Assembly: GCA_002494165.1 (NCBI GenBank)
Contig: DLBH01000025.1
Location: 16,287-80,286 of the forward strand
DNA length: 64,000 nt
Direction: 5' to 3'
Source: Lachnospiraceae bacterium UBA7026
GTDB taxonomy: Bacteria; Bacillota; Clostridia; Lachnospirales; Lachnospiraceae
Each line of letters begins with the position of its first letter. Position 1 is the stretch's first letter. Below, one piece after another: positions 9,895 to 50,552 of the stretch. The translations under genes and the position numbers were made by a program. The notes under the pieces were generated by a model, which was not told where the DNA came from, ran no database searches, and was given only the letters and a program-made list of their open reading frames with translations.

Positions 9895-9926
9895 TATCTA
9901 TCCTCATCCATCGTGATTGATAGATA
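9895..9926 (-). promoter_or_regulatory. Hairpin between riboswitch and terminator
   Basis: TATCTATC (9895-9902) and GATAGATA (9919-9926) form an 8-bp stem just after the riboswitch P1 helix. It could be part of the switching region between aptamer and terminator; no pairing with the terminator itself was worked out. Confidence 0.45.
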
Positions 9927-9932
9927 AAATGA

Positions 9933-10087
9933 GTTATAAGCAGGTCTCCTGACTCTTGAGCTGTGTCTTTCCGCCTTCCCGGTTACCCAGTGACATATTG
10001 GAAAGATTGCCTCAATTACAGTTGCGGGACAGTGCCGGAATCCCACCGGCTTCCCTCTTGGCGGCTTGTAAAAAGCCGACTTATAAC
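9933..10087 (-). ncRNA. Cobalamin riboswitch
   Basis: Read on the minus strand the element has, in order, the P1 arm CTTATAAC complement, AAGCCGG-TGGGATTCCGGCAC, the conserved CCCGCAACTGTAA, GTCACTGGG, ACCGGGAAGG and the B12-box end AGTCAGGAGACCTGC. Outer strands 9933-9940 and 10080-10087 are complementary and close P1. This is the adenosylcobalamin-class architecture. It precedes btuF with a terminator between them, so it controls corrinoid uptake by transcription attenuation. Confidence 0.95.
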
Positions 10088-10458
10088 TGGAAAAATATTA
10101 CGTTTATAAATTATATATAGAAGGGTGGCCTTTGTCAATATTGCATAATAATTTTCTAAATATTTTATTTTTTGATAAGGTTTTGGAGAGAAATTTATAA
10201 ATAATATAGGCAATAATTATAAATATTCAACAAAACAGGAATAGATTAAAAGCATATTGTTCCATAGACTTTGACTGGTGCTTATTAGTAGGTCCAAAAC
10301 CGTTTTCCGAAAAAAATCAGATACAATTTTTAGGGATCTGCAATGTAAGGAAGCTATACCTGTGGAAGCTATAAATTTATGCCCGGTTTGCAGAAAAAAA
10401 AGACAGATTGGTCAGAGTGTGTTAAAATGATTCATATTTATTCTGGAGGTGTCAATCC

Positions 10459-23203: not shown

Positions 23204-26200
23204 TTAGGTTGCGAAGTGTTTGTAGCGTTCCAGCCGGTCGATTTCGGCGGCGATGAGGTCTGATACCAGGCGGTCGCCGTCCATGCTGACGGAGGCGCCG
23301 CTATCGGGATACCGGGGTTCGGCAAGGACTTCAGAGAGCCGCCGCAGGGTCAGGGCCCGGTGGCAGGTTTCCTGGTAGACCTTTTCCAGGGCCAGGTAAA
23401 GGGCTCTGGAGTTCTCCAGGCAGACTCTGGATAATTCGAAAAAGGCTTCCCTGGAGGCACCCTCGAGGAAGGAGGGGACCTGGTAGGGCAGGATGGTATT
23501 AATGGAGGGCAGGAGGGAGGCGGTCTGGGCCTCTTCGTCCCTGGATTGGATTCCGTCACCGCCTACGAAGGGATAGATGTCTGATTCCAGGATCCAGGCT
23601 CTCATGTTGGGAATATTGTAGACAGCCTTGACGTTATGCTTGTTGATTTTGGCCAGGTCTCTTCCCTGGCCGGAGATTACTCCGACGATGATATCACTGA
23701 CATCGACTTTTTCTTCGTCCAACAGTGTCCGTATTTTGGATACACGGTAGCCTTTATGGAAAATATCATCCACCAGAATTACCGGTTTCTGGAAGGATTT
23801 GATGGACCGGATCTGGGTAATCAGGGAAGGATAGTTGGGGAATTCCCTGATTTCAAAGCCCTCCAGTCTCCGATTGTAAAGCTTTTCGGTATAGAGGTCT
23901 TTTGTGACAGTATCCGGCAGGCGGACTCCCTTTAATATTTTACCGAAGGGAACACACATTTTCTCATGGGAGAGATGGATTTCCAGGAGCTCCTCCGGTA
24001 TATAGTCTCCCTCCAGGTCATCTTTGCCTGTGATGGGGTTATTTTCCATGACCAGCCGGATCAGCTTATAGTTGAGGATCTCCGTCTCCAGATTGAGGAC
24101 CAGCCGGCCCGGATAGAGTTTGGGAAGGGCGGTCTGCAGTCTTTTGCGGCACTGCCAGAGCACCTGCTCTACTTCCGGTGTGTTGCAGTAGGGTTCCTTG
24201 ATAAAGGAAAATGCGTCGAAGAATACGGTCAGGGGATTACTCAGGTCCAGGATAAAGGAGTCCTCATAGCCCTCCAGGGGCAGAAAACCCTGGGCCAGGA
24301 GCAGGTCCCGGTGGTCCGGGCTGTCCAGCATGAGGACGTAGGAGTAAGACTGCTCCTGGACTATGGAGAGCATTTCTGCCAGGACGGTCATTTTCATATC
24401 CTCTGTCTCCGTGGTCTGGCCGCTGATGGAAGTGATCCGGACTACCCGGCCTGAAAGCTTCTGCCGCAGCAGGTTGGTCAGGTCCATATCCTCGCATTCT
24501 TCATAGAGATCAGACAGGAAGATTTTATGGTATATGACTTTTCCGCATTCCTTTAGCTCTTTTCTCTTGTCTAAGATGGTGACGGTCCTGTCTTTGTCTG
24601 ACAGATCCAGTATGGTTTCAATGGGCTTGGTCCTGGCAACTTTTTTGTAAATAGGATCCCCGGAATAGAGGTTCCTGTCCATAATATAGTTGAGGACCTG
24701 GGAATCCACCAAGCCGGATATGTCTGTGCCCTCCTCCAGTTTCTGCTGGATATCCTGGGAGGACATGGTGTCGTAGTAGGATGGCAGATTCATATAAAGG
24801 ACTTCATTCTGGATCAGCTGCTCGATGGCAGTCCGGTCCATGTGGCCCTGGGAGATGTTCCTGTAGAAGACGATGTGGGGGAAGGTGTGGATGGAACCGG
24901 GTCTGGGGTCCTCCATATAGGCAGAGTTGGTCTCCACCACATCATTTCCTACGACAATATAGATCTCCCGGCCGGGGAAGAGCTTTCTCAGCAGGCCCAG
25001 GTCATCCGTGTTGCCAAGACTGATGGGGTATTTCTCCGGGAACAGGTAGACATGTTCCAGATCAGCTACAGACATGGATATGATCTGCCGGCGGATCTGG
25101 TAGGGCTGGGTGTTCTGGAACCAGGAGAAATCATGAGCGTCAATATAAACCCGGAAGCCCATCTCAGACAGTTCCCTGGCCACAGCCTTATGGCCTCTGG
25201 TAAAGGGGTCGAAAGAGCCGGAGAAGAAGGCGATGGGCTGCTTTTTATCCTCATCAGGGAGAGTTCCCATGTTCTGCCGCAGGTATTTGTGGATGTGGCA
25301 GAGGGAACTGCTGTTGTAGAGTTCCGCCAGGAAGGCAGGTTTGGCCACCATGTAGGTCAGGGCTTTTTTTGCCAGATGGCGCATGTATTCCTGCTGGGCA
25401 TGGGAGGCTGCCTCATAGCGGAAAAGCCGGTGGCCTGCCAGGAAAAAGGCTTCTCTGGCTACATCGTCTTTGTAGCTGGCCATGGCCTTGTAAAGGATGC
25501 CGGTAAAGAACTGCATCTCCGTCTGCAGGTCCTGTCCCTGGACTGCCGTCCTGTGGGCAGAAGAGGTCTCCATGAGCTGGAGGATGACGGCCGCTGTTTC
25601 CGTGATGGTATTGACAACTTCTTTATTGCTGTGTTCGGACAGCTCCTGGAAGGCGGGAAGCAGCTCAATCTGGTCCTGGGGATCCAGATGAAGAAAAGCA
25701 TTTCCCAGGAATTCCGGATAATAGTTGGAGGAGTCATCCATCAGCTCTATGGATTTGAGGATCTCCTGGACGATCTCATAGATATGCTGATGGGACAGCC
25801 GGTGCATGGCCTGGACCAGGTGACGGCCGGCCGTGATAAATACGACGGCCTGGGTGTTAAGCCTCAGGATATTCAGCAGGTGGGTGGCATAGGGGAAGAG
25901 GTCTTCCCTGCCGCTGTAATAGTGCTTCAGGATTCTCAGATTCATGATTTTGATGATCCAGGGAGTCTCTGACCGGAGATTTTCCGAGATCAGATCCCTG
26001 GGCTGAAGCCTTTTTAATTCATGGTCCGGTCTGTCCTTGCCTTTTTCAGTTTCTGCCCCTGTTATCCCGGGCTCCTGGCCGGTTTCTTTCTCCTGGTCAC
26101 CGGCTGCTGCCTCAGTTACTGCTCCCCTTTTGGCGGGGCCGGACTGAGTGTCCGTTTTATTCTGGTGGGATACAGTGGAGGGAGCCGGAGCTTTGGTGGA

Positions 26201-27172
26201 TACGGGCTGAAAGCCCGGCAACTCCTCAGGCAGGTATTGGCGGATCTGCCAGACCAGATATTTTTCACTGTAGACGCTGCTCCTTTGGGGATAGTAATCA
26301 GACAGATAGAAGAGAACATCCTCCCTGGGCTTCCAGCCCTGGCCAAACCAGGTGGAGAGAAGGCGGAGTGAGGCGATGCGGATCTCTTCGTAATCTTTCC
26401 TCAGGAAATAGCGCATGAAACCGAAGATATAGTAGAGCTGCTGGGTCGACCAGAGCTGGCAGGAGATGTCCTGGATTCCTGTGACCAGGTAAAGGCAGGT
26501 CATGTTGTCCCAGCCTGTCGACTTGAAATAAGAAGAATAGGTGGCCAGGATTGCCGGAGTCAGGGGATGTCTGGCAGTGTTGGTTGCCTCATCAGCGGTG
26601 ATGGCGTCCATAGGCGCCGCATTTTCTGCAGGCAGAGAATCATCCTTATGATCAGGCCTGGTCAGGCCTTCCATGATCGCGTTGAGAATCTCCCTGATGG
26701 CATAGCCGATTCTCCGACGGTTGGTCAGGCTGGTATGGTTGCCTGGGAAGAGGAGGCGGTGAAGGAATTTTTCCCAGATATCGGGATTGGTCCTGGCGCA
26801 GGAAGCAATCAGAAAACCTGCCGTCCTGGCGGCCATTCTCCGTACCGTGCTGTTTTTGTGGGGCAGCATGGCAAAAAGGTAGTTGAGAACGATCCGGATC
26901 TGGTCCGGGGAAAGAAGACCGGAATGGCTTTCCAGTATGGTCAGGCCCGCCCTGATTTTCCGCCAGTCCTCTTCATTTTGCAGGGTTTCCATGAGACTGA
27001 TGATATCATTGGTCTCCTCTGTCAGCTTCAGGATTTTCCGCTCTGCCTCCTCTGCCAGGAGGGAGAAAGATGAGGCAATCTCCTTGTCTGTCATCAGTTC
27101 AGGGAAGGGGATGGCTTCCGTGATATTCCGGTAGATGTTCTGTTCATTGGCATTCTGGGTTAATTCGATCAT
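23204..27172 (-). CDS. Multidomain protein: repeat solenoid, HIGH-family nucleotidyltransferase, GNAT-like region, phosphoribosyltransferase
   Basis: A 1322-residue cytoplasmic protein with no named function. Residues 1-640 are helical with HEAT/ARM-like repeats (for example RRMAARTAGFLIASCAR) and a charged linker at about 320-390. Residues 640-840 are a NadD/cytidylyltransferase-like domain: AFFSGSFDPFTRGHKAV (HIGH-type motif with GHK) and IYIVVGNDVVETNSAY. Residues 845-980 look like an acetyltransferase fold (VRITSISGQ ... LLAQGFLPLEG). Residues 1070-1205 resemble a type I phosphoribosyltransferase, with PVILVDDIFHKGYR as the PRPP loop (usual form VDDVxxTG, here with HKGY). The start ATG overlaps the stop of the 880-aa gene by 4 nt. 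Together the domains suggest synthesis or processing of a nucleotide-like compound, but this is inference. Confidence 0.7.
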   Translation of the reverse strand: MIELTQNANEQNIYRNITEAIPFPELMTDKEIASSFSLLAEEAERKILKLTEETNDIISLMETLQNEEDWRKIRAGLTILESHSGLLSPDQIRIVLNYLFAMLPHKNSTVRRMAARTAGFLIASCARTNPDIWEKFLHRLLFPGNHTSLTNRRRIGYAIREILNAIMEGLTRPDHKDDSLPAENAAPMDAITADEATNTARHPLTPAILATYSSYFKSTGWDNMTCLYLVTGIQDISCQLWSTQQLYYIFGFMRYFLRKDYEEIRIASLRLLSTWFGQGWKPREDVLFYLSDYYPQRSSVYSEKYLVWQIRQYLPEELPGFQPVSTKAPAPSTVSHQNKTDTQSGPAKRGAVTEAAAGDQEKETGQEPGITGAETEKGKDRPDHELKRLQPRDLISENLRSETPWIIKIMNLRILKHYYSGREDLFPYATHLLNILRLNTQAVVFITAGRHLVQAMHRLSHQHIYEIVQEILKSIELMDDSSNYYPEFLGNAFLHLDPQDQIELLPAFQELSEHSNKEVVNTITETAAVILQLMETSSAHRTAVQGQDLQTEMQFFTGILYKAMASYKDDVAREAFFLAGHRLFRYEAASHAQQEYMRHLAKKALTYMVAKPAFLAELYNSSSLCHIHKYLRQNMGTLPDEDKKQPIAFFSGSFDPFTRGHKAVARELSEMGFRVYIDAHDFSWFQNTQPYQIRRQIISMSVADLEHVYLFPEKYPISLGNTDDLGLLRKLFPGREIYIVVGNDVVETNSAYMEDPRPGSIHTFPHIVFYRNISQGHMDRTAIEQLIQNEVLYMNLPSYYDTMSSQDIQQKLEEGTDISGLVDSQVLNYIMDRNLYSGDPIYKKVARTKPIETILDLSDKDRTVTILDKRKELKECGKVIYHKIFLSDLYEECEDMDLTNLLRQKLSGRVVRITSISGQTTETEDMKMTVLAEMLSIVQEQSYSYVLMLDSPDHRDLLLAQGFLPLEGYEDSFILDLSNPLTVFFDAFSFIKEPYCNTPEVEQVLWQCRKRLQTALPKLYPGRLVLNLETEILNYKLIRLVMENNPITGKDDLEGDYIPEELLEIHLSHEKMCVPFGKILKGVRLPDTVTKDLYTEKLYNRRLEGFEIREFPNYPSLITQIRSIKSFQKPVILVDDIFHKGYRVSKIRTLLDEEKVDVSDIIVGVISGQGRDLAKINKHNVKAVYNIPNMRAWILESDIYPFVGGDGIQSRDEEAQTASLLPSINTILPYQVPSFLEGASREAFFELSRVCLENSRALYLALEKVYQETCHRALTLRRLSEVLAEPRYPDSGASVSMDGDRLVSDLIAAEIDRLERYKHFAT

Positions 27173-29811
27173 GGGGTCACCTCCTTCCTGTCAAAAGCAC
27201 AGACAAGACGTTTGTCCATCAGGTCGTGGTAAAGACAGGCTCCTTCCTGTCCAACCAGGTAGAAACCGATGATGTGGTCGAGTCCGGCCGCCTCGGGGAC
27301 GATATCACATATATGGTTCTTCATGCTTGTGAACCGTTCCGGGTAAAAGACCCTTGTCCGGTCATCTTCGAAGACAGCCATATAGAGGATACCGTTTTCC
27401 ACCAGGTCCTGGAAAATGTGACTGCCGTAGGAGAGTTCCGGGCTGTAGCCGACCCGGGACTCGGATATTTCAAAGATGGCTTTGAATTCGCTGATGTCCG
27501 AGTAGGTGGATGGAACGCCCAGCTCCGGAGAGGAGGTACAGATCCGTCCCGGCACCATCAACAGCATGTTTTTATTTTTATTCCGGTAATACCAGTTGAG
27601 GGAACCGATAATCCGGGCAATCTGGTTTTTATCATTGTAGGGCATCTTGTAATACTCCACCGGGTCCACGTAGACGATGGCGTAGAGGGGGAGCCTCTGG
27701 GACTGGCCCATGGAGGCATTAGTACAATCGATAAAAATGTCTTCTTCTGCCAGGTCCTCAGGAATCAGCTGCCGGCCCTTGTCCCGGAATACCTGGAGGG
27801 GGCGGCACTGGAGCAAGTTGATGATGTAGTCCCCGTCCTCAGACAAATTCATGGTAAATTCAATATCTACCGGCTGCTGGTATTCCTCCTGGATTACGGC
27901 CATCATATCCTGCATATCCTTCATCAATTGTTTGTTCTTCACCAGACCCTGGCAATTCACAAAGAGCACATCCCGGAAGATGCCCCGGTCCCGGAAACGG
28001 CGTTCCGCGTCCAGGTCATGACCCAGCAGGACTTTTTTCAGCCATTTGGGCAGGACATCAAGAACCCGGCTTACGGGCAGCTGTTCCAGCTTGCCGGTCT
28101 CTTTATTAATCAGCTCCAGGTTTTGCTGGGAGTAGCGATGGTGTTCAGCCAGGGATTTGAAGGAGGTGGCTTCCGGCTTATCCAGACTGACCAGTCTGGG
28201 GTAGGAGCCTTCCGTCCGGTCCACAGCCGATGTTCCCAGGCCCATGACCAGGCGGAGCATGCCGGCGGCCGGGTCCAGGCTCTCAAGAAAACGATAGGTA
28301 CTGTAGGAGTAACCGACCCCGGCGGCACAGGGCATAAAATAGCTGCCATAGTGGGAGCCGGAGACCCTCATGACCAGGAGGGCCATCTGTTCATCCCGCT
28401 CAGCCAGGCCCCTTCTCAGCCTGTAGTCCAGGGCGGACCGGCTCATAGAGCTGGCATAGACGATCCGGATGGCTTGTTCGAACTCAGCCAGCCGGTCTTC
28501 CATAGTTCCCACCCCGGGACAGAAAACTGACTCGTATTTACCGGCAAAGGCATTGCCGAAGCCGTCTTCCAGGATGGAGCTGGACCGGACGATGATGGGT
28601 GAATGTCCATAGTATTCCAGGAGCTGGATAAAGGCATCCTTCATTTTCCTGGAAAATGTCCCGTGGAGCATCTTGTCTGTGACGCTGTCGGCCAGGTCGA
28701 AGTAACCCTCCTTTGTTTTCTGCCGGACCCGGAGATCCCAGAAATCATTTTCCACGATATAGGAGTAGAAGACATCGGACCCGATAAAGAAGGAGTCATG
28801 GGGCTCCATCCGCTCGAAAATATCGGGCCTCCGGTTCTCGATAATCCTGCGGGCCACCAGCATGCCACAGGCCTTGCCGCCGATCAGACCGGTGCCTACC
28901 ATGTGCTCTTTTACAAAAAAATAGTCCTCAGGCCGGAAATGGTCCCTGATCATTTCCCGGATCCGGGGATCCCGGCTCATCATGATCTCACTCATTCTCT
29001 CACAGGCTGTGCTGATATCCCTGGACATCTCGAAATCCCGCTGGGTCTGGTCGAAAAACCGGTCCCAGGCGTCCTTATGTTCATCATATTCCTTGCCGGC
29101 TGACATACGGGAGGTCAGGTTCAGAGCCCGTTGGAAGCGGCTGTTTAAGACAGCATCCTGTATGGGTTCAAAGTGGCCGGTCGAACCATGGAAAATGTGG
29201 GGGACCAGCTGTTTGTCCGGCATGCCGTAGATTTTGATGGGCCGCATATAAATATGGTTAAAGTCTGAATAGAGGTCCAGAAATAGCCTGGTCTGCCGCT
29301 GGATCTCCTTCTTGGTTTCTGAAGAGTGGAGGCCCCGGATCAGGGGGAAGAAGGCCTGGCTGTTGGTGCTGCGGATGGCAGGAGTGATGACCCGGAAGAA
29401 GTTCTCCATCATCAGGTCCGTGGCCCAGGCTGTCTGCAGCTCGGAAAGGCAGTCAAATATATAAAGGACATTATGGCCGTTGTTCCAGATGGTCTGGTAG
29501 ACGGATACGGAAAAGCCCTCAAAGCGGTGGGACAGGGGAATCTCCTGCAGATGGACTTTCTGTTCCCTGATGTAGCGGTCATCTACCAGGGAAGCCGCCT
29601 TCTCGGAGAAATGGATGTAGGCGATCTTCTGGCCGCCGGCAGCGGCTTTTTCGATGAAAGCCGGCAGAATCCGGCGGAATTCTGTCAGCTCTGTAATCTG
29701 CCATACCACATTTCTCGGCGTTGATGTGTTGAATAAAATGTCGTCCATGGCTGAGGGGGACTCAGGGTTTATCACTAATGGAGGGATAAGAATCATCTCC
29801 TTTCTGTACAT
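27169..29811 (-). CDS. PEP-synthase-type ATP-grasp (PPDK_N) protein with RecA-like N-terminus
   Basis: An 880-residue protein of unassigned role. Residues 30-200 contain beta-strands and a DCLSELQTAWATD segment that recall a RecA/KaiC-like core, without a visible Walker A. Residues 295-675 are the ATP/pyruvate-binding domain of PEP synthase and PPDK: GLIGGKACGML, then IIVRSSSILEDGFGNAFAGK near 404 and a closing VDIEFTMN ... INLLQCRPLQ near 645-672. The swivelling phospho-His domain (TxGGxxSH) and the PEP-binding barrel of true PEP synthase are absent; residues 690-880 are an unknown C-terminal domain. It is first in a two-gene operon, coupled by a 4-nt overlap to the 1322-aa gene. ATG 29811 has no good binding site, so the start is uncertain. 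Confidence 0.72.
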   Translation of the reverse strand: MYRKEMILIPPLVINPESPSAMDDILFNTSTPRNVVWQITELTEFRRILPAFIEKAAAGGQKIAYIHFSEKAASLVDDRYIREQKVHLQEIPLSHRFEGFSVSVYQTIWNNGHNVLYIFDCLSELQTAWATDLMMENFFRVITPAIRSTNSQAFFPLIRGLHSSETKKEIQRQTRLFLDLYSDFNHIYMRPIKIYGMPDKQLVPHIFHGSTGHFEPIQDAVLNSRFQRALNLTSRMSAGKEYDEHKDAWDRFFDQTQRDFEMSRDISTACERMSEIMMSRDPRIREMIRDHFRPEDYFFVKEHMVGTGLIGGKACGMLVARRIIENRRPDIFERMEPHDSFFIGSDVFYSYIVENDFWDLRVRQKTKEGYFDLADSVTDKMLHGTFSRKMKDAFIQLLEYYGHSPIIVRSSSILEDGFGNAFAGKYESVFCPGVGTMEDRLAEFEQAIRIVYASSMSRSALDYRLRRGLAERDEQMALLVMRVSGSHYGSYFMPCAAGVGYSYSTYRFLESLDPAAGMLRLVMGLGTSAVDRTEGSYPRLVSLDKPEATSFKSLAEHHRYSQQNLELINKETGKLEQLPVSRVLDVLPKWLKKVLLGHDLDAERRFRDRGIFRDVLFVNCQGLVKNKQLMKDMQDMMAVIQEEYQQPVDIEFTMNLSEDGDYIINLLQCRPLQVFRDKGRQLIPEDLAEEDIFIDCTNASMGQSQRLPLYAIVYVDPVEYYKMPYNDKNQIARIIGSLNWYYRNKNKNMLLMVPGRICTSSPELGVPSTYSDISEFKAIFEISESRVGYSPELSYGSHIFQDLVENGILYMAVFEDDRTRVFYPERFTSMKNHICDIVPEAAGLDHIIGFYLVGQEGACLYHDLMDKRLVCAFDRKEVTP

Positions 29812-47746: not shown

Positions 47747-47927
47747 ATCATTAGCCGGGTCTTTTCCGGCTTCAAGGCATGCGGGGAAGCCTGCCTGCCT
47801 ATTATTGACAGATTATTAACTGGTCAGCGGTCAGCAGCCGGGGAAGGAACCGGCATTAGGACCAGCTTATGGGAAATTTGCCTTCCGGTCAGGCCGGAGG
47901 CTGATTAGAGGGAGGAGGACTAGGGTG

Positions 47928-50552
47928 ATGAATTCATTATACAGCCTGAAGGCCGGATGCAGACTGGATGATCGCTATATCGTCATGGATGTGATCGGTG
48001 AGGGTGGTTTTGGAATCACCTACCAGGGTTTTGATGAGCGGCTGGAGATGAAGGTCGCAATCAAGGAATATTTTCCCCAGCATCTGGCTGCCAGAATGAA
48101 TACCTATGGCAGCGAGGTTAATGTGACAAAGGAAGAAGACCATGAATCCTTTGAGAAAGGGAAAAAGCGCTTTCTTGAGGAGGCGATGATTCTCGGTCGT
48201 CTGGAGTCTGAGGAAGGTATCGTTAATGTAAAAGATTATTTTGAAGAGAATAATACGGCTTATTTTGTCATGGAGTTCCTGAACGGGGAGAATCTTGAAG
48301 CGATTGTGGACCGGGAGGGGCCTATGAATATGGATGATCTGGTCCTCTTGCTGGAGCCTGTTATGAAGTCTTTGGAAAGGGTCCACCAGGAAGGCTTGAT
48401 TCACCGGGATATCAGCCCTGATAATATTATCATTACGAACGGCGGGTCTGCCAGGCTGGTGGATTTCGGGGCAGCCAGGAATTATATGGCCGGAGACAAG
48501 ACCCGGACTGTTATCTTAAAACCTGGCTATGCTCCGGAAGAGCAGTACAGGGCCGATGAGGAACAGGGACCATGGACGGATGTCTATGCCCTGGCGGCCA
48601 CCATTTACCGTTGTATTACCGGGCTGCGGTTGCCCGAGGCCTACCGCAGAGTGACCGATGACTGTCTCAGTAATCCTTCTGAGCTGGGAGTGGATATTTC
48701 TCCTGCCCAGGAACAGGCTCTGATGAAGGGCCTTGAGGTTTATGCCAAAGACCGTTATCAGACCATGGCTGATTTCCGTCAGGCTCTTATGGCCCAGGAG
48801 TCCCAGATTTCCATGGCGGCGTCCGGCCAGGATGGATCCGGAGGCAGGCGGTTTGCCGAAGAGGAGGGAGGCATAAGACCGGCCATTTTAGCTGGGGTGG
48901 CAGGGCTTTTGATCATGCTGCTGGCCGGAACAGGTTTCCTTTTCCACATGCTAAAGGGTAAGCCTGCCGACACTGATGATCAGATTAAGGCAGCCAATGA
49001 ATATAAGCTGACGGCATCTACAAGCCAGACCAGGCCCGCGGATGACCAGGAAGATGACGACTCCGACGACCAGCTGGCACAGGGAAGTGAGGACAGTGGG
49101 AATCAGGGAGCGGAAGGTTTCACAGGCTTCGGGGAGAAATGGGACAAGAATAAGATTTCCCAGGATTCCGTGGACCAGTACCGGGAAGGTGCGGATGAAG
49201 TAGAAGAAGAGACTCTGGATGCGGACCAGGAGGAGACAGACCAGGTGACTACAGAGACTCCGGAGCAGACGACCCAGGCGCCCGCGGCCAGCACAGAGCA
49301 GAAACCGGAGGGCTGGGAGGATGAGACAGGAACTGCTATCCCAGGCCAGGAGATTCCTGCGGCTACAGAGGCACCGGAGCAGACGACCCAGGCGCCCGCG
49401 GCCAGCACAGAGCAGAAACCGGAGGGCTGGGAGGATGAGACAGGAACTGCTATCCCGGGCCAGGAAGCTCCAGTGACGACAGAAGCCCCGGCACCGGCGA
49501 CAACAGAGGCCCCGGCACCGGCGACAACAGAGGCCCCGGCACCGGCGACAACAGAGACCCCGGCACTGGCGACGACAGAAGCCCCGGATCAATCGACCAC
49601 AGGGATTCAGGGGCTGCCGGCCCAGATAGATCCAGAAGCCAGTACAGAGCAGAAACCGGAGGGATGGGTGGACCAGTCTGGAGATGTGGTTCCGGGTCAG
49701 GAGATTCAGGATGAGACCGGACTTCCGACCCAGATAGATCCAGAGGCCAGCACAGAGCAAAGGCCGGAAGGCTGGGTAGATGAGTCTGGAACCGTCATTA
49801 CTGACCAGCCTGCCCAGGCATCTACAGAGACTCCTGAACAGGTGACAGAAGCTCCGGCACCGGCGACGACAGAAGCCCCGGCCCAGACGACAACAGAGGC
49901 TCCCGAGGAGGTGATAGAAGTTCCTGAGCAGGTGACTACGGAAGCTCCTGTCCAGGAAGAGCCGCACCCAGTAGATGAAGAGATTCTGGATGAAAACCAG
50001 AACCCAGAGTCGGAAGGTGAGGAAGTCCAGGTGGTTGAATCTGCTGGGGAAGAGTTTGTGGAAGATGGAGGAGTACTGGTAGGAGAGACGGGAGAAGACC
50101 CTATAGCCCAGGTGGACGCTATTGATGCTTCCCAGGGGGCTTACACCAGCCAGGATGGTTATCCCTCCTATATCAGTGAAAGTGTTGACACTTCCCGTTA
50201 CCAGGTTACCAGTCTCATAGACGAACAGGGCGTTTTGAAAAAGAGCCTTGTCACAGACAGTCAGACTGGTATAAGCGGAGAGATTTATTATAAGAATATT
50301 TCTCCGGAAAGTGTGGCGGCAGGCGGTGTTTCTCTAAAGAATACTGCATTTTGCACCTATATACAGACACCGGCCGGGGAGTGCCAGGCTTATTTTAAGG
50401 ATGGACAGGTGACAGAGTTCATGGGACCCGATGGACAGGTGCAGGATTTCGGTGAAGGCATAGACTATGCTTCCTTCTATGAGCTTATGCAGCAGGGGGC
50501 CTATGGCGACCTGGCTAAGACCTTGCTGGACATGACTGGTCCAGGCTGGTAA
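47928..50552 (+). CDS. Receptor-like Ser/Thr protein kinase with repeat-rich extracellular stalk
   Basis: An 874-residue single-pass kinase. The cytoplasmic kinase (about 10-290) has VIGEGGFGITYQGFDERLEM, VAIKEYFP (ATP Lys), HRDISPDN near 160 and LVDFGAARNY near 178, with the APEEQY segment in the activation region, so it is predicted active. One membrane helix is at 320-343. An acidic, Thr/Pro/Ala-rich stalk (about 345-700) follows, containing exact copies of long repeats. The C-terminal 130 residues form a small extracellular beta-rich domain with two Cys. No PASTA repeats. ATG 47928 follows GGAGGAGG; the GTG at 47925 is too close. No cognate phosphatase is adjacent. The sensed signal is unknown. 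Confidence 0.86.
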   Translation: MNSLYSLKAGCRLDDRYIVMDVIGEGGFGITYQGFDERLEMKVAIKEYFPQHLAARMNTYGSEVNVTKEEDHESFEKGKKRFLEEAMILGRLESEEGIVNVKDYFEENNTAYFVMEFLNGENLEAIVDREGPMNMDDLVLLLEPVMKSLERVHQEGLIHRDISPDNIIITNGGSARLVDFGAARNYMAGDKTRTVILKPGYAPEEQYRADEEQGPWTDVYALAATIYRCITGLRLPEAYRRVTDDCLSNPSELGVDISPAQEQALMKGLEVYAKDRYQTMADFRQALMAQESQISMAASGQDGSGGRRFAEEEGGIRPAILAGVAGLLIMLLAGTGFLFHMLKGKPADTDDQIKAANEYKLTASTSQTRPADDQEDDDSDDQLAQGSEDSGNQGAEGFTGFGEKWDKNKISQDSVDQYREGADEVEEETLDADQEETDQVTTETPEQTTQAPAASTEQKPEGWEDETGTAIPGQEIPAATEAPEQTTQAPAASTEQKPEGWEDETGTAIPGQEAPVTTEAPAPATTEAPAPATTEAPAPATTETPALATTEAPDQSTTGIQGLPAQIDPEASTEQKPEGWVDQSGDVVPGQEIQDETGLPTQIDPEASTEQRPEGWVDESGTVITDQPAQASTETPEQVTEAPAPATTEAPAQTTTEAPEEVIEVPEQVTTEAPVQEEPHPVDEEILDENQNPESEGEEVQVVESAGEEFVEDGGVLVGETGEDPIAQVDAIDASQGAYTSQDGYPSYISESVDTSRYQVTSLIDEQGVLKKSLVTDSQTGISGEIYYKNISPESVAAGGVSLKNTAFCTYIQTPAGECQAYFKDGQVTEFMGPDGQVQDFGEGIDYASFYELMQQGAYGDLAKTLLDMTGPGW
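49261..49480 (+). repeat. 114-bp in-frame tandem repeat in the kinase stalk
   Basis: CGGAGCAGACGACCCAGGCG begins at 49261 and again at 49375. The first 80-plus bases of both copies agree almost perfectly, the unit being 38 codons. Diverged copies of the STEQKPEGW core follow at about 49640 and 49755. Confidence 0.95.
49484..49585 (+). repeat. 24-bp in-frame tandem repeat in the kinase stalk
   Basis: GCCCCGGCACCGGCGACAAC with its AGAG end is a 24-bp unit (encoding eight residues, APAPATTE) repeated four times, with one copy changed to TPALATTE. Confidence 0.92.

Follow-up and report, generated by a model that had tools for sequence, protein, structure and literature searches.

In a stretch of 64,000 nucleotides from Lachnospiraceae bacterium UBA7026 (contig DLBH01000025.1; hereafter the window) two very large genes, here called A and B, form an operon on the minus strand. 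Judged from its predicted structure, A is best interpreted as a putative swivel dikinase that belongs to the PPDK/PEP-synthase/rifampin-phosphotransferase superfamily and has no pyruvate site. Sequence comparison suggests that B has descended, with partial erosion, from a wider clostridial protein that carries an extra HD domain. We tentatively assume that both proteins act as a pair of dikinase and scaffold, which would serve nitrogen (ammonia/glutamate) metabolism by phosphate transfer via a histidine of the swivel. ATP would be split in the PPDK_N domain of A, and a phosphate would be taken up by a histidine in the C-terminal swivel (probably H798) and then passed to an acceptor held either by the KaiC-like front domain of A or by protein B, with which A would be in contact. 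B may thus be a HEAT-scaffolded partner in which the phosphoribosyltransferase (PRTase)-like domain is kept, the NMN-adenylyltransferase-like domain is eroding and the HD domain is gone. A nitrogen role of the pair is suggested by A-type and B-type genes elsewhere, which tend to lie close to genes for ammonium transporters, GOGAT, glutamine synthetase and glutamate dehydrogenase.

The initial annotation had described two minus-strand reading frames overlapping by 4 nt, and their coordinates, strand and lengths proved to be right (Table 1). The overlap consists of the ATGA at 27169-27172. As the start of B lies in the last codons of A behind a strong Shine-Dalgarno-like site (identified by eye), coupled translation is likely, which is in line with the earlier view that A and B are made together. 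A GGAAGGA motif precedes the start of A (by eye), and the start codon itself is uncertain, since the closest relative of A (P0003, among at least 7997 matches) begins at the equivalent of residue 22. Chance reading frames seem not to be involved, because both proteins have many relatives at E≤1e-3: at least 7997 among 7999 candidates scored for A and at least 249 among 7992 for the C-terminal part of B. One further locus (L002) encodes a B 93% identical to that of the window. The window genome is an assembly of 2.33 Mb that is 83% complete and contains a single match to A. A promoter scan yielded 5 sites compared to 5.3 in shuffles, Rfam at gathering thresholds revealed no riboswitch at the A-B pair of the window and none in the loci L021 and L022, and literature searches of open-licence PMC listed no description of A or B. 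Elsewhere in the window, a cobalamin riboswitch (9922-10099, minus strand, 122 bits), the sole Rfam match, precedes transporter genes of the Peripla_BP_2 and FecCD types, which share its strand. The segment 18805-22079 (plus strand) contains a gene for a BMC-domain protein and, behind it, two nucleotidyltransferase/hexapeptide genes that resemble a GlgC/GlgD pair, and an 875-aa protein with a protein kinase domain at the N-terminus is encoded at 47925-50552 (plus strand).

Table 1. Positions of genes A and B, their domains and selected motifs in the window.
Feature	Position	Strand	Remark
Gene A	27169..29811	-	ORF, 880 aa; PpsA-like, of dikinase type, no PEP barrel; PPDK_N E 7e-39
KaiC/FlaH/RecA-like domain, A residues 10-230	29122..29784	-	no P-loop at the usual place
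PPDK_N ATP-binding domain, A residues 274-681	27769..28992	-	Pfam E 7e-39; structural match
Swivel-like domain, A residues 690-873	27193..27744	-	predicted fold
H798 codon, candidate phosphohistidine (PELSYGSHIFQDLVE)	27418..27420	-	His in 45/45 aligned A proteins
Shine-Dalgarno-like AGGAGGTGA for B	27177..27185	-	by eye; inside A, ahead of the B start
Gene B	23204..27172	-	ORF, 1322 aa; HEAT-like/NMNAT-like/GNAT-like/PRTase-like fusion
HEAT-like helical repeats, B residues 24-600	25373..27103	-	weak evidence
NMN adenylyltransferase (NadD)-like domain, B residues 644-837	24662..25243	-	weak, repeatable matches
Q809 codon	24746..24748	-	Gln in place of the ISSTxIR Arg
GNAT-like fold, B residues 849-978	24239..24628	-	predicted fold
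Type I phosphoribosyltransferase-like domain, B residues 982-1190	23603..24229	-	predicted fold; weak sequence match, E 0.029
PRPP-loop-like ILVDDIFHKGYR	23744..23779	-	D1135/H1139/R1143 region

The predicted structure of A (mean pLDDT 83.9) combines three domains, of which the KaiC/RecA-like N-terminal and the swivel-like C-terminal one, like the HEAT-like repeats of B, had been missed in the initial annotation. The Walker A P-loop of KaiC/RecA ATPases is not present at its usual place. K313, R409 and R670 are invariant in all 45 aligned A proteins. Around H798 the model contains a strand, a loop, a helix starting at this residue and a further strand, the same order as in PEP synthase (PEPS), and a structural comparison matched A to RPH and PEPS, swivel part included. 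Sequence profiles did not confirm the swivel histidine, neither with Pfam on the swivel piece alone nor with hhalign against E. coli PpsA. In the latter, the PpsA segment after its own histidine aligned with SPELGVPST of A (E 0.046), which counts against H798, as the PpsA histidine was not aligned to it.

The earlier description of A as a PEP-synthase head could not be upheld. Besides PPDK_N no Pfam match above cut-off was found in A and none past residue 688, all PEPS models remained far under their cut-offs (best model, the PEPS equivalog, 47.5 bits versus 883), and the PEP/pyruvate-binding barrel is absent, as the model chain stops after the swivel-like part. We therefore rejected A as a PEP synthase; it resembles a dikinase group that includes rifampin phosphotransferase. 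The RPH equivalog scored 17.2 bits on A at a cut-off of 999. A-type proteins were detected in 38 of 150 family-sample genomes, the window included (E≤1e-40), and several of them are labelled phosphoenolpyruvate synthase by their sources. According to PMC4844700, RPH homologues are often misannotated in the same way. Metabolic models that rely on such names would gain a PEP-forming step, although A-type proteins lack the pyruvate site. One locus (L147, 8671-10533, minus strand) encodes a 620-aa A-type protein that apparently starts near the ATP-binding part and has no KaiC-like front domain; similar short matches occur in the 150-genome family sample.

In B, the HEAT-like half is weakly indicated by a PF02985 match below cut-off in a relative (L069, E 7e-4) and by a match of the B family profile to the designed protein 4rzp (E 5.6e-5). 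The following part gave a cytidylyltransferase-like Pfam match (E 7.6e-5) and an E value of 7.7e-9 with the NadD model, yet under its cut-off (35.3 versus 150 bits). NadD proteins carry an (H/T)xGH-type and an ISSTxIR motif; the window B contains FDPFTRGH and, in the second motif, Q809. No family match by sequence was obtained for the GNAT part, and the acetyl-CoA loop of GNAT proteins, [RQ]xxGx[GA], is absent from window B at the aligned residues 919-956 and present in 5 of 120 relatives (best 120 of 249). The PRPP loop of type I phosphoribosyltransferases is of the DDxxxTGxT kind, and in VDDIFHKGYR of B the acidic pair and the Gly are kept, with K and R at the Thr positions. Equivalents of D1135, H1139 and R1143 were each found in all 16 HD-less relatives and in 103, 100 and 104, respectively, of the 104 that have the HD motif (best 120 of 249). 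A model of residues 840-1322, based on 64 sequences (mean pLDDT 91.2), reveals a clear GNAT fold and a clear type I PRTase fold, and much of this C-terminal half is conserved family-wide. Both assignments of the initial annotation are thus confirmed by fold, though for the GNAT part not and for the PRTase part only weakly by sequence. Of the three motif classes it had named, PPDK_N in A and the cytidylyltransferase-like domain in B stood up to Pfam, and PRTase is clear by fold only.

To trace where B comes from, motifs were counted in the best 120 of 249 relatives, P0122, a near-copy of window B, being left out. Of these 120, 104 have an additional N-terminal region with a motif of the HDxGK type. 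Pfam HD exceeded its cut-off in four of five HD-motif proteins scanned (P0239 is the exception) and gave no match in the B of L069. Equivalents of Arg809 and His661 are kept in all 104 HD-motif relatives (best 120 of 249). After three apparent N-terminal fragments and P0211, which has a long N-terminus, had been set aside from the 16 HD-less proteins, 8 of the remaining 12 with their own N-terminus have Gln at the ISSTxIR Arg (best 120 of 249), and the His of the His661 motif is gone in the HD-less P0173 and P0182. A tree of 43 B proteins was rooted at its midpoint; L112, L117, L121 and L074 of 21 loci offered had been dropped at the motif filter. In this tree the HD-less proteins except P0170 form one clade with long branches inside the HD-bearing ones (support 0.990). 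As P0170 groups elsewhere, HD may have disappeared repeatedly, by loss or by truncation.

B was found in 9 of 196 order-sample, 32 of 391 class-sample, 21 of 397 family-sample and 5 of 21 genus genomes; these samples overlap and the window genome is counted in each. We read the neighbours in 40 B regions. Of the 39 non-window order/class-sample genomes, 19 supplied 20 regions, and the other 20 came from all 20 non-window family-sample genomes. An LDH-like gene (PF00056) occurs in 38 and an FMN-reductase-like gene (PF03358) in 32 of the 40 regions, and several of the missing partners are explained by contig ends. In L060 and L061 transporter and GOGAT genes lie between the LDH-like gene and B. 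The LDH-like gene was found in 4/4 HD-bearing and in 0/5 HD-less genomes, the latter being assemblies 75-91% complete. The window clade has lost the HD domain, the LDH-like and FMN-reductase-like partners and often the Arg of ISSTxIR, and has A instead. Such losses, differing from clade to clade, amount to a natural experiment as to which parts work together. B itself belongs to a clostridial operon whose neighbours point to ammonia/glutamate metabolism.

Some further observations concern the HD-type regions. C205, C208, C213 and C222 are invariant in the FMN-reductase-like partner (L069, 6021-7076, minus strand, and relatives) and perhaps form an Fe-S site; a PDB search with the profile of this family gave no matches at 0.01. 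In G785 an HD-type B broken by stops or frame breaks (L126, 7058-11197, plus strand) adjoins LDH-like and FMN-reductase-like genes. A scan for FMN riboswitches covered 7 of the 40 HD-type B regions. In L060 (1867-7714, plus strand) such a riboswitch is followed by an ECF transporter S-component gene and an HD-type B, and in L061 (6467-13161, plus strand) by an ECF S-component gene, one further reading frame and an HD-type B. As all these elements are on the same strand, B could be controlled by FMN in both loci.

Within the genus (21 genomes) A is present in 13 and B in 5 genomes, and in all five of the latter A is directly beside B, the A of G215 being cut by a contig end. In G947, from another genus, A overlaps an HD-bearing B that is followed by an LDH-like gene; this arrangement is an intermediate state. 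The two genes are therefore found together beyond the window. Outside the genus A was detected in 3 of 59 B genomes, namely 1 of 39 (a partial, weak match, E 8.2e-29) and 2 of 20. The profile search did not find A in the other 56, and a distant A could be missed, as the model was built from close relatives. The adjacency noted earlier hence holds as a local linkage, but not as a general pairing. The pair-type A proteins group apart from stand-alone A; with the A of G947 added, support is 0.52.

Genes for ammonium transporter, GOGAT, glutamine synthetase or glutamate dehydrogenase were searched for with identical BLAST thresholds in all region sets and occur in 10 of 42 B regions, in 6 of 28 regions with a lone A and in 1 of 40 arbitrary control regions from 14 of the same genomes. 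One-sided Fisher tests gave 0.0045 for B and 0.017 for lone A, values that have to be read with shared kinship and differing sizes of the regions, which are phylogenetically non-independent, and with a gene list picked after the first loci had been seen. The lone-A matches comprise 3 of 8 genus loci and 3 of 20 family-sample loci (drawn from 37 non-window A genomes), so that 17 of these 20 are without such a gene. Reference identities were assigned by Pfam, save for the GOGAT small subunit (by eye), which was never the sole match in a region. Looser thresholds added nitrogen-type matches in L074, L136 and L147 that dropped out under the stricter ones, and the stricter list does not include CarA of L069 and PurF of L029. 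A scan of 10 ORFs next to the pair in the window revealed no nitrogen gene, and none was found in L021 and L022. In G947 gdhA adjoins the A-B pair. A cluster of about 15 kb in G804 (L191, 1172-15574, plus strand) comprises an HD-type B, an LDH-like gene, an aminotransferase gene, gdhA, a 2-hydroxyacid dehydrogenase gene, DUF4147/MOFRL and A. Its A overlaps the DUF4147/MOFRL gene by 4 nt and is by eye of the stand-alone type; it came to light after the counting and is left out of all counts. In another locus (L024, 12830-14671, minus strand) an ammonium transporter fused to a P-II domain adjoins a stand-alone A gene.

The initial annotation had proposed that A and B may make, attach or salvage an unusual nucleotide or nucleoside-like metabolite, or mark a protein with one. 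In a reading of this type the PRTase-like domain would add phosphoribose to a base, and the NadD-like domain would adenylate the product to a dinucleotide, which we regard as rather unlikely. The same low expectation applies to the further roles, in which the HD domain of HD-bearing B would proofread, the LDH-like and FMN-reductase-like proteins would use the product and A would supply a phosphorylated precursor. This reading could explain why the HD-bearing proteins (104/104, best 120 of 249) keep Arg809 and His661, why their regions share NAD-type and FMN-type redox genes and why in L060 and L061 the strand of B also carries an FMN riboswitch one or two genes upstream of it; the HD (YqeK)-NadD proofreading fusion of PMC9426524 is a precedent. 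It has to face a window clade without HD, without redox partners and usually without Arg809, the loss of His661 in P0173 and P0182, and an acetyl-CoA loop pattern missing in 115 of 120 relatives (best 120 of 249). Since window B has neither the ISSTxIR Arg nor HD, nucleotide synthesis fits the HD-bearing relatives better, and for the copy in the window the earlier idea weakens. Taken as a whole, HD-HEAT-NMNAT-GNAT-PRTase with the LDH-like and FMN-reductase-like proteins might form a clostridial route, so far undescribed, to a non-standard NAD-like dinucleotide that reports or serves ammonia/glutamate status, with HD as proofreader and with a KaiC-fronted histidine dikinase that replaced the redox partners in the window branch; we consider this doubtful.

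It is likewise rather unlikely that B in the window clade is a decaying pseudo-enzyme, a regulatory scaffold controlling A with no new metabolite. The eroded motifs and long branches of the HD-less clade, the HEAT-like half of B and the gene overlap are what one would expect from such a scaffold, but all 16 HD-less relatives retain the PRPP-loop residues (best 120 of 249), and family-wide conservation extends over much of the C-terminal half. The source names and the PPDK_N domain would agree with A as a real PEP synthase or PPDK of central metabolism and B as its regulator, which we consider very improbable, as only PPDK_N exceeds its Pfam cut-off, the chain ends after the swivel-like part and PEPS models score far too low. 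Hardly more credible is a nucleoside signal produced by a defence system or a Ter-like stress system, in spite of the patchy occurrence of B (5 of 21 genomes in the genus) and its PRTase-like domain. Neither A nor B matched PADLOC or PHROGs at 0.01, and we rejected a defence or phage origin on these grounds. A search for TerD matched 2 of 14 control genomes but found none in the 83%-complete window genome, and Pfam gave no Ter-type domain for A or B at E≤1; a Ter system was rejected on the lack of a TerD match. A dikinase with a scaffold partner in nitrogen metabolism is still the explanation that we tentatively prefer.

Ter biosynthetic modules (PMC7824862) share with A-B a PRTase-type domain and an operon with other nucleotide-using enzymes; they differ in that the window genome gave no TerD match and A and B no Ter-type Pfam domain. 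A fusion of NadD with the HD protein YqeK and its proofreading are known from NAD synthesis (PMC9426524). HD-bearing B relatives resemble it in the joining of a NadD-like with an HD domain, but their HD is N-terminal and far from NadD and HEAT-like, GNAT-like and PRTase-like parts are added, whereas window B lacks both HD and the ISSTxIR Arg. In PEP synthase and PPDK, as in A, the ATP-binding domain is directly followed by a swivel-like domain; unlike them, A has no pyruvate/PEP barrel, an extra N-terminal domain and a strongly diverged swivel sequence. Swivel dikinases of the RPH group, with an essential histidine in the swivel, convert ATP and an acceptor into phospho-acceptor, AMP and Pi. 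In RPH the phosphate passes from ATP via the swivel histidine to the acceptor (PMC4844700), and HpeHI is a two-component relative (PMC12167813). The drug-binding domain of RPH sits between its ATP domain and its swivel, whereas A has a KaiC-like front domain and its swivel-like part directly after the ATP domain. RPH and HpeHI share with A the PPDK_N-type ATP-binding domain and the lack of a PEP barrel; their swivel phosphohistidine domain has a counterpart in A by predicted fold, with H798 as candidate histidine.
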